A stretch of 64,000 bases of DNA. It comes from Roseomonas indoligenes (lineage in GTDB: Bacteria > Pseudomonadota > Alphaproteobacteria > Acetobacterales > Acetobacteraceae). The stretch is taken from contig NZ_JAGIZA010000004.1 of assembly GCF_017813365.1 (NCBI RefSeq), forward strand, positions 310,001-374,000. Direction: 5' to 3'. Position 1 is the first letter of the stretch; each line of letters starts with the position of its first letter. The notes below the pieces were generated by a model. The model searched no databases and was not told the origin of the DNA. It saw nothing but the letters and a program-made list of their open reading frames with translations. This document shows positions 48,412 to 51,256 of the stretch, one piece after another. The translations under genes were made by a program, and so were the position numbers.

Positions 48412-48618
48412 ATGATGAACTTCCGCACCCTCGCCCTCGCCGCCGCCCTGATCGGCTCCCTCGCCGCCCCGGCCTTCGCCGACCAGGACCGCGTGCCCGA
48501 GGGCGCCACTGCCTCCGGCCGTTGGACCGCTGGCGACAGCCGCACCCCGCTGGCCGGCAGCACTGCGGACCGCCTGGAGCAGTCCGGCGCCACCGGCGGC
48601 GGCGGCCAGCACTCGTAA
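48412..48618 (+). CDS. Small exported protein
   Basis: A 68-residue protein with a clear signal peptide (MMNFRTLALAAALIGSLAAPAFA, cleavage after AFA). The mature part is about 45 residues, hydrophilic, rich in Gly, Ser and Thr (SGRWTAGDSRTPLAGSTADRLEQ) with no cysteine. I know of no family. It has a palindrome upstream and a strong terminator 62 bases downstream, so it is a single-gene transcript and looks like a real, regulated small periplasmic protein. Confidence 0.7.
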   Translation: MMNFRTLALAAALIGSLAAPAFADQDRVPEGATASGRWTAGDSRTPLAGSTADRLEQSGATGGGGQHS

Positions 48619-48679: not shown

Positions 48680-48710
48680 GGGGCTGCCAGGAACTCCTGG
48701 CAGCCCCTTT
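48680..48710 (+). terminator. Intrinsic terminator of the small exported protein
   Basis: A perfect 12-bp stem (GGGGCTGCCAGG with CCTGGCAGCCCC) over a four-base loop, followed by TTTGCTCGT. It ends 62 bases after the stop codon. This is one of the better terminators in the window. Confidence 0.85.
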
Positions 48711-48857
48711 GCTCGTGTGAGGCGGCTTCAGATGGGTTCCCACAAACGCTTGGGCGGCCAGCGGCCTGCCGGAGTGGACGTTGATGGCCCCGACCACCGG
48801 CGATCTTGCCACTCCGCCGGTTACGGTTCCTTTGACATTTCGCCTCACCATGGCGCC

Positions 48858-50006
48858 ATGCAGCTAAGGCCAGAGCAGACCGTCGCGCGCAGCCCGGTGG
48901 ATGACGCCCGCCCGGCGACGTTCCTCGAGCGCGGGGTGATGGTGCCCTTCACGACGCCGATGCTCCTGGGCAGCCGCGTGCGGCCGAGCGGCCGGCGGGG
49001 GCTGGAGATTGCCGTCCCGAGTCCGGCGGGCGTCCGCGGATTCTACGTGCTTCCCCTCCGGGGCCTTCCGGACATCTGCACACCCACGCTCCACGACCGC
49101 TTGCTGGTGGATTTGGTCGAGCGGATCCCGGCCGTGACGCCCGACGCCATCATCGGCGCGACGCGGCAGGTGGCGCAGGAAGGCTTCGCGGGTCGGGAGG
49201 CCGCCGCCGCCGCATCTGCCGCAGCGAAGGCCCAGGCGAATCAGCGGCTGATCACGAATTACCGCTTACTGCTGCTTCTGATCCGGCAAACCGAAGTACA
49301 GGGCGAGCACGTCTTGCCTCCGGAACGGGACGTGCCCTTAAGCGTCCAGCGCCGCGCAGAGCGCGCCGTCGCCCGCCTGGCGCATGACGCCGGGCTCTCC
49401 CCTTCGGCCGTGGTCACGGCGATGGACGGGCTGACGGAGGCCTACCTGGCCGTGGGCTTCCGCGGCGACCCGACGCGGGCGCGCTACCAGGGCGAGCTCG
49501 TCGCGCTGGCCGACATGGCCGAGGAAGTGGCGCGCTGGGGCGAGTTGGCGGTGGACCCGCAGCAATCCGGCTGCGCCTCTCTGATCGCCCGGTCCGCCCG
49601 GCTGACGGTTGAAGCCGGGGAGATCCTGATGGAACGCGTCCTCGCCGCGACCGAGGACCTTCGGGCGCTGCTGCTGCGCTGGACCCGGGACTCGGAAGCC
49701 GTGCTGCGCGAGACGGCCCGCCTGGCCTGGCTGCTGGACGGCTGGTCCGTCATGGCCGGCCTCTGGCGGAGCGCCGACCGGATGGGGCGCGCGGCGACGG
49801 TCGGTGAGATGGCCGTGATGGTGCCGAGCATGCCGCGGGAGGTCACCCGGTGGACGGGCGAGGCGAGCGGGGAAGTGTCGGACGAGCCGCATAGCGTGAC
49901 CCACAGCATGCGCAGCCGCTTCGTCGTCCGCATGACGGACTGGCGCACGGGACGGATGCTTGAATTGACGGAGCGGAACGAGGTCATCGTGAAGGAATGC
50001 CTGTGA
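48858..50006 (+). CDS. Unknown protein, first of an overlapping pair
   Basis: A 382-residue soluble protein with no signal peptide and no membrane helix; I do not recognise it. The N-terminal third is the most conserved-looking part (FLERGVMVPFTTPMLLGSRVRP and RRGLEIAVPSPAGVRGFYVLP, about residues 22-70), followed by helical segments rich in Ala, Arg and Leu up to 320 and an ending ELTERNEVIVKECL. The start at 48858 is chosen as the first ATG of the protein-like part; the frame runs upstream through the terminator of the previous gene. It overlaps the next gene by ten bases, so both are likely made together. Confidence 0.7.
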   Translation: MQLRPEQTVARSPVDDARPATFLERGVMVPFTTPMLLGSRVRPSGRRGLEIAVPSPAGVRGFYVLPLRGLPDICTPTLHDRLLVDLVERIPAVTPDAIIGATRQVAQEGFAGREAAAAASAAAKAQANQRLITNYRLLLLLIRQTEVQGEHVLPPERDVPLSVQRRAERAVARLAHDAGLSPSAVVTAMDGLTEAYLAVGFRGDPTRARYQGELVALADMAEEVARWGELAVDPQQSGCASLIARSARLTVEAGEILMERVLAATEDLRALLLRWTRDSEAVLRETARLAWLLDGWSVMAGLWRSADRMGRAATVGEMAVMVPSMPREVTRWTGEASGEVSDEPHSVTHSMRSRFVVRMTDWRTGRMLELTERNEVIVKECL

Positions 50007-51256
50007 ACGCCGTCGCCCCGCTCGGAAACGGCACGGCCGAACTGCGCCTGCTGAGCGGCGCCCTGGCCGATGCCTCGCGGGAGCAGCTGGCGCGGGTGGT
50101 CTCGCTGATCGACGAACTGCCTGACCGCGCCGGGGCCGACAGCCTGTTGGAACGCGCGCGGCCGCGGCTGCGGGAGCTGAACCTGCCCCGCCCGCTCGGC
50201 TTCACGCGGCTGCTTTTCCTGCCCTTCGACATGCTGATCGTGCCGCCCTCGGCCTGGGCCCCCGGCGGCCCGGCGATCCCGCGCACGGCGCTTCGGGTGC
50301 TTTCCGCCGCTGTGGAGGGAAAGCTGGGACCGGAGGCGGCGCGCATCGACGCCGATTGCGCCGGCCTGACTGCCGAGCAGCCCGAGAAGATCCTCACCCT
50401 CGGCCGGATGCTCTGGCCCGCCGCGGCCCATGCGCTGCCCGGAAGCTCGCCCGAGGGGTGGGAGGCGGCGGGGCTGCCCGCGCGGGAGTACCCGGTCTTG
50501 CGGGAACGCTGCGCGGCGGGCTGGCGCCACGCGGTCGCGATCTGGCCCGCGCTGCAGGCCGCGGCGGAGGGGCCGCCGGAGGTGCTGGCCCGGCAGGCGC
50601 TGGAAGGTGCGGCTGCGGAGGGTGGCGCGGCGCTGGAGGTGGCTCTCCGGATGCTCATGGCGCGGGCTTCCCGCCCGGCGAGCCTCGCCACCCTTGCCAT
50701 TCGCCTTTCCCCGTCCGGATCGGCGCAGGCAGCCCGGGCCGCACAGGGCGCGGTGGACGAGTACCTGCATCGCCGTGAGCTGGGGGTGGCGACCGCGGGT
50801 GACCGGTGCGGGCAGGCGCGTCGTGCCGCGGCCGACGCCCTGGCCGTCTGCGTCCTCGCCGAAGACTTTGAGGCATCCGGCCTGCTCGGCCTTCCGGCCC
50901 GGCGGGAACGGCTGCAGGCGATCCGCAGGGCAACCGCCGATACCTGCCGGGAGAGCTTCGCCGGACTGCTCTCCGAGGAGCTGCTGGGACCTCTTGCCGC
51001 GCTGGGGAGAACCGGAGCGGCCGAGGCGCACGCCATCCTGCCGTCGCTGGAGGAGGCTGCGCGCCTGCTCCGGCGGATCGAGGGCAGCGGGCGACGTCTG
51101 GGCGGGGCGGAAACTTATGATTTCGCGCTGAATGCGGCCGCTGCCGAGGTTGCCGATGGCGGTGCAGCCGCTGGGCTGGCCCATGTGGAGCGGCTGCGGC
51201 TCGTGGAGATGCTGGCCGGACCGGAAGCCGCGCTCCGGCTCGTCGGGTGGCCGTGA
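49997..51256 (+). CDS. Unknown protein, second of an overlapping pair
   Basis: A 419-residue helical, Ala-rich cytoplasmic protein that I do not recognise. One segment stands out, LPRPLGFTRLLFLPFDMLIVPPSAWAPGGPAIPRTAL (about residues 63-99), with LPFDMLIVP a candidate family motif. No Walker, zinc or catalytic motif is visible. It starts ten bases before the end of the previous gene, and the next gene (TauE-like) is convergent. The two proteins may form a complex of unknown function; no related gene appears elsewhere in the window. Confidence 0.7.
   Translation: MPVNAVAPLGNGTAELRLLSGALADASREQLARVVSLIDELPDRAGADSLLERARPRLRELNLPRPLGFTRLLFLPFDMLIVPPSAWAPGGPAIPRTALRVLSAAVEGKLGPEAARIDADCAGLTAEQPEKILTLGRMLWPAAAHALPGSSPEGWEAAGLPAREYPVLRERCAAGWRHAVAIWPALQAAAEGPPEVLARQALEGAAAEGGAALEVALRMLMARASRPASLATLAIRLSPSGSAQAARAAQGAVDEYLHRRELGVATAGDRCGQARRAAADALAVCVLAEDFEASGLLGLPARRERLQAIRRATADTCRESFAGLLSEELLGPLAALGRTGAAEAHAILPSLEEAARLLRRIEGSGRRLGGAETYDFALNAAAAEVADGGAAAGLAHVERLRLVEMLAGPEAALRLVGWP

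Follow-up and report, generated by a model that had tools for sequence, protein, structure and literature searches.

Two overlapping genes of Roseomonas indoligenes raise the question of what a pair of cytoplasmic proteins does when neither carries a recognisable domain and the surrounding genes share no evident function. The window analysed here is a stretch of 64,000 nucleotides (assembly GCF_017813365.1, contig NZ_JAGIZA010000004.1, positions 310,001 to 374,000). The genes, termed P1 and P2 (Table 1), had been described from the letters of this DNA, without database searches (hereafter the sequence-only reading). They constitute a real, conserved, selected and usually adjacent pair, which is fused in one clade and many of whose promoters share an element with fliL.

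Table 1. Features of the P1/P2 locus, in window coordinates.
Feature	Position	Strand	Description
P1	48858..50006	+	382 aa; no known family; modelled as three short strands, then long helices
P2	49997..51256	+	419 aa, or 417 aa from GTG 50003; no known family; all-helical in the fusion model
Candidate CtrA-type element	48821..48837	+	weak match, 7.5 bits; first base 37 nt ahead of the P1 start codon, a usual spacing
Hairpin	48680..48707		near-perfect; 12-bp stem, 4-nt loop, then TTTGCT; between small ORF 48412-48618 and P1
Named neighbours			CoaD-like protein, cyclophilin, tRNA-Lys, TauE/SafE, GT2/GtrA protein, PMT_2 protein

Gene structure and conservation

Both reading frames are present at the lengths first proposed, 382 and 419 residues. 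The claimed ten-base overlap is correct if P2 starts at ATG 49997, but is reduced to 4 nt if GTG 50003 is used instead; as 52 of 80 distinct unfused junctions of relatives would allow P2 to start at -4, the real extent of the overlap may be 4 nt. The conserved-looking block that the sequence-only reading noticed at the P1 N-terminus proved real, with P19, F22, R25, G26, F31-P34, R40, R42 and G61 invariant or nearly so across 52 sequences. Its P2 segment, LPFDMLIVP...WAPGGPAIP, likewise falls inside a conserved block, which includes R55, R57, L58, R65, R71, L73, P76 and R96 (56 sequences). Both genes are under purifying selection: dN/dS between the window and two relatives is 0.13-0.15 for P1 and 0.23-0.28 for P2, compared with 0.10-0.29 for four neighbouring genes. 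The hairpin upstream of P1 looks like a terminator that would isolate it from the preceding genes, judged from its letters; a terminator scan did not flag it.

Searches for a known family or fold

The impression that neither protein has a recognisable domain was borne out. P1 and P2 lack significant matches in Pfam (best E 0.46), PHROG (0.017), PADLOC (0.025), PDB sequences (0.12) and NCBIfam (no match). The proposed check against profile databases thus brought to light no known family of unrelated role, the result named beforehand as speaking against a two-gene module. Scans of 52 P1 and 56 P2 homologues yielded matches in only one or two members per family, none of them shared (best E 0.0013 among P1 members and 0.00038 among P2 members). 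Matches of the P1 profile in PDB sequences (best E 0.00037) were mostly to designed helical bundles and are read as reflecting helical composition, while the P2 profile had no match to PDB sequences below E 0.05. No FliL profile was matched by P1 or P2 in the profile searches of the window proteins and the homologue sets. RxxxR-like residues in the P1 N-terminal block resemble the PilZ (c-di-GMP) motif. A PilZ identity is not supported, as P1 has no such Pfam match up to E 10 and its model contains only three short strands and no beta-barrel.

AlphaFold gave confident models, for P1 of the window alone (pLDDT 89.5, pTM 0.87) and for one of the naturally fused proteins described below (123 aligned rows; mean pLDDT 89.3, pTM 0.86). 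In the fusion both domains are confident and the linker (about residues 378-418) is poorly predicted; its pTM suggests that the P1 and P2 domains are packed together in the model. With Foldseek, neither model had a PDB match at E 0.001. The best VIA scores against the PDB, from alignments with scarcely any coverage of P1 residues 1-100 or of the initial part of P2, were Z 7.8 for the fusion (4.5 A, 144 residues) and Z 6.2 for P1 (4.8 A, 189 residues), within the noise stated for helical models. Fumarase and argininosuccinate-lyase chains are numerous in the P1 fold list at Z 5-6; they are not accepted as relatives because such scores are common for helical models and supporting sequence similarity was not seen. 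The sole BFVD match (E 9.8e-4), a tape-measure protein, is a helical artefact (TM 0.09, rmsd 43.6).

Distribution and linkage of the pair

P1 occurs in 124 and P2 in 121 of 299 genomes of the window's family, Acetobacteraceae. Retention of the pair in this family was one of the checks suggested for the module, with frequent separation of the genes as the adverse outcome. Such separation was not found: 115 of the 130 genomes with either gene have both, nine having P1 only and six P2 only, and several of these single-gene genomes are incomplete or represented by short fragments. P1 is found in 55 of the 102 genera drawn from the family. Named carriers among the best 80 of 171 relatives include Roseomonas, Neoroseomonas, Belnapia, Paracraurococcus, Acidisphaera, Rhodopila and Skermanella. 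A draw from the class recovered P1 in 37 of 385 genomes, spread over 16 alphaproteobacterial families including the window's, the case in f95 being a short, weak match.

At the level of loci, which overlap in many cases and were all, except the window, retrieved through a P1 or P2 match, 165 of 167 contain both genes. One of the other two (L110) ends at a contig edge but shows the start of P2, and the second (L116) is a true solo P1; true solo P1 genes include those of L116/L250 and L248. Outside the family, P2 lies beside P1 in 14 of 20 loci and is undetectable in the stretch read in six, one of which (L212) stops at a contig end. Distances between P1 proteins correlate with those between P2 proteins (r 0.83 over 64 loci, a value reached in 0 of 1000 permutations), and the two share their nearest neighbour in 39 of the 64 loci. 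As this correlation includes species descent, it speaks for joint inheritance, not contact.

Several irregular cases were observed alongside. Two genomes of another family carry solo, divergent P1 homologues (L204 and L212), each beside a gene that we take, by eye, to be Nudix/RppH-like. In genome G088 (L045/L069), P1 is split over two reading frames with P2 intact, reflecting a frameshift or a sequencing error. P2 matches with one in-frame stop occur in G152 and G010; the former has no P1 match, and its stop-bearing P2 suggests, as far as the letters go, decay of the module. In G425 (L205:4638-10593), a P1 homologue ends a 1985-codon open frame, which is either a large fusion or an open frame of GC-rich DNA.

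Natural fusions and tandem arrays

In one lineage, the P1 and P2 domains form a single uninterrupted ORF of about 800-860 codons from stop to stop. Full-length fusions are present in 13 of the best 80 of 171 relatives' loci, six of which have four in tandem. L142 holds cut-off fusion ORFs, and L045/L069 (one genome) was left out of the count, both profiles matching in one frame there but P1 being frame-split. A FastTree phylogeny places the P1 domains from 25 non-redundant fused ORFs in a single clade (support 95, midpoint root), inside which copies from different loci cluster together. Four-copy tandem arrays of divergent fusion ORFs were seen in L061, L062, L120, L124, L128, L131, L138 and L162, where L061/L131 and L062/L138 are apparently the same contigs under other names.

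That the two genes yield a joint product had been argued from their overlap. The one-ORF fusions support this proposal and are the stronger argument, making a joint product of P1 and P2 likely; the separate proteins are predicted to associate physically. The one-chain fusions, for example L162:7947-10406, are also ready-made constructs for structural work.

Gene neighbourhood

The remark that the neighbours lack a shared function holds in the window, where the named genes show no evident common role. No general neighbour family was found across the loci of relatives. AsmA recurs in a subset only, Azospirillum loci being annotated so. Other genes recurring in subsets only are presumably, as named by eye, enolase, EnvZ/OmpR-like, YraN-like and MotA/MotB-like, among others; the genes near the pair in L069, L073, L077 and L080 are those that we take to be motA/motB-like, and they count in favour of a motility link. 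Gene contexts are nevertheless stable across related genomes and differ by sub-lineage, which points to a self-contained module kept by descent and not to a mobile or defence element. Within the genus, two of eight genomes drawn have P1, and two found later (G683 and G685) also carry the pair, at the same place as in the window's genome (G000). In the other stretches read, the TauE orthologue is accompanied by different genes, which leaves gain and loss in the genus unpolarised.

A defence, toxin-antitoxin or other mobile module is accordingly disfavoured and appears very improbable. The patchy occurrence in the genus, the tandem multiplication in one lineage, the lack of a known domain and the nearby tRNA-Lys gene would suit such a module. 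However, neither protein falls in a PADLOC family (P1 without any match, P2 accounting for the best E given above), and P1/P2 relatives are absent from 50,697 phage records, with none confirmed in viral contigs. Plasmid-borne pairs are confined to 16 large Azospirillum records (648 kb to 2.05 Mb), and the conserved neighbourhoods and purifying selection on both genes speak against a mobile origin too.

An upstream element resembling the CtrA consensus

A motif search of 70 of 74 P1 rows (without the short loci numbered below L063, near-duplicates or the window) recovered a direct repeat, roughly TAAC-N6-TTnAC, mostly 37-60 nt ahead of the P1 start. The CtrA consensus is TTAA-N7-TTAA, and motility is described as an ancestral role of this regulator (PMC9437464). 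The P1 element resembles this consensus in its letters, and CtrA would be expected to bind it. Scored with the matrix built from these 70 non-redundant upstreams, and trained on half-splits, 48 of 70 P1 upstreams reach at least 10 bits compared with 16 of 387 control upstreams, which belong to other genes of these loci; the split is only partly independent, as the start positions of the training half were chosen with the all-70 matrix and related sequences are not independent cases. Since so few of these controls reach 10 bits, the element is not a general promoter. Its enrichment is modest outside the family (6 of 20 P1 upstreams vs 17 of 170 controls at 10 bits or more). The match in the window itself is weak, a score of at least 7 bits being attained by 43 of the 387 controls. 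Among fused ORFs, 1 of 25 upstreams reaches 10 bits, and the inner copies of the arrays may be co-transcribed.

Sites with at most one mismatch to TTAA-N7-TTAA are present in 18 of 70 P1 upstreams vs 21 of 387 controls, and exact matches show no excess (1 of 94 upstreams of P1 and fusions vs 9 of 411). The TTAACC/GGTTAA half-site was the only one of ten preset regulator patterns to be enriched (15 of 94 vs 22 of 411); sigma-54, sigma-28-like, RpoE, RpoH, LexA, Fnr, PhoB and MucR-like patterns were not enriched in the same 94 upstreams. A CtrA-like protein is encoded in the window's genome (60% identity over residues 1-225, with a query not taken from a database record). Using this query, 74 of 80 genomes proved to encode such proteins (E 1e-60 or better), namely 39 of the 41 with P1 and 35 of the 39 without; being as common in non-carriers, their presence does not discriminate. 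The element was also seen to score high upstream of a DUF2336 gene and a chemoreceptor gene (L119 and L127; 10 control proteins scanned).

The flagellar clusters of eight genomes, including the window's, were scanned with the P1-derived matrix (75 upstream regions). The upstream region of fliL ranks first in seven of the eight, scoring 17.6 bits in the window's genome; in the exception (L258) it scores 8.6 bits and a divergent neighbour higher. Column-permuted matrices reached seven of eight in 1 of 300 cases and eight in none. The fliL genes match PF03748 (FliL) in all eight clusters; those of L253 and L259 were missed by the gene caller and located manually. As the eight fliL promoters are homologous, they count as one conserved promoter and a single case.

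These results bear on whether CtrA is involved at all. The element could be a common -35-like region or the site of another regulator, with P1 and P2 forming a general or metabolic cytoplasmic complex unlinked to motility. This is unlikely: strong sites are scarce among the controls, near-consensus sites are enriched ahead of P1 and fliL ranks first in most clusters. It nonetheless accords with the lack of enrichment of exact sites, the weakness of the element in the window and in most fused-array upstreams, and the stable housekeeping neighbourhoods that differ by lineage.

Association with the flagellum

Taking the presence of PF00460 to define flagellated genomes, 123 of 124 P1 genomes in the family draw are flagellated vs 128 of 175 without P1; in the class draw, the proportions are 36 of 37 and 196 of 348. 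The non-flagellated carriers, G163 and G522, are 73% and 70% complete. None of the 19 family genomes that lack flagella, measure at least 3.3 Mb and are at least 90% complete carries P1, so genome size alone does not explain the association. It may, however, reflect clade, because P1 is absent from every genome drawn in the genera that contain both kinds (g16, g44, g53, g60 and g85), whether flagellated or not. The chemoreceptor domain PF00015 is present in 64 of 73 P1 carriers tested vs 48 of 60 flagellated non-carriers; a dependence on chemotaxis was rejected, nine of these carriers having no match. A core flagellar role is likewise not supported, since the pair is missing from 128 of 251 flagellated family genomes (single-protein search) and is encoded apart from the flagellar cluster, which in the window's genome was read on another contig (C34 vs C23).

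A CtrA-regulated complex could instead serve cell polarity or division, encystment, attachment to surfaces, signalling or some other CtrA-controlled process, and would then look flagellar through shared CtrA control. CtrA has several roles in alphaproteobacteria (PMC2877005). Placement outside flagellar clusters, absence from many flagellated genomes and the element ahead of the DUF2336 and chemoreceptor genes are all compatible with such a role. It is held to be possible yet doubtful, given the leading score of fliL in seven of eight clusters and the near-universal flagellation of P1 genomes, even if the latter follows clade.

Proposed role and implications

The best reading, to which a probability of roughly 0.4 is assigned, is that P1 and P2 form a helical accessory factor of two subunits, expressed together with the flagellum under CtrA and putative in its biochemical role. 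The proteins would be subunits of one cytoplasmic, largely alpha-helical complex and would be translated together. In most Acetobacteraceae-type lineages, a fliL-type promoter activated by CtrA would drive the pair, and the complex would act as an accessory factor of the flagellar or motile programme. As no enzyme fold was recognised, it would most likely serve as a structural scaffold, or else in assembly or regulation. We infer, by this reading, that P1 and P2 bind each other, that CtrA binds upstream of P1, that the site in the window works and that motility is served in preference to another CtrA process.

A more far-reaching version seems improbable. It holds that the pair is an undescribed two-subunit helical machine with no relative of known structure, belonging to the motility programme that CtrA controls in Rhodospirillales-type bacteria, and that fusion in one lineage led to four divergent paralogues in fixed order that would make up a hetero-oligomeric cytoplasmic accessory structure of the flagellum.

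The lack of a Pfam or NCBIfam match for the window's proteins, in a pair whose P1 is found in 55 of 102 family genera and in 16 families of the class draw, represents a sizeable annotation blind spot, and the element common to fliL promoters makes the role of an anonymous pair testable. If the accessory-factor reading is true, a component would be added to the motility programme of environmental bacteria, perhaps including plant-associated Azospirillum.

Comparison with known systems

The closest known counterparts are on Azospirillum megaplasmids, where adjacent homologues of P1 and P2 occur in the same order and are annotated 'hypothetical protein' (e.g. WP_012977162.1 / WP_012977161.1). The P1 homologues are 28-31% identical over at least 91% of the length of P1, and P2 is more divergent. 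Three of the four annotated loci read differ from the window in having a third small gene after the pair and a divergent upstream AsmA gene. No paper was found for six Azospirillum accessions or tags of the pair homologues, and none of the titles listed for Azospirillum motility, lateral flagella or CtrA with Acetobacteraceae names the pair, which does not prove its absence from print.

For control of expression, the relevant comparison is fliL2p of Rhodobacter sphaeroides, which is activated through a single CtrA site (PMC6180460). There, as ahead of P1, the element lies close before the start codon, and fliL promoters of the window's own family were found by a matrix derived from P1 upstreams. 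The likeness concerns control sites only, P1 and P2 not being relatives of FliL by profile; binding of CtrA ahead of P1 is a prediction.
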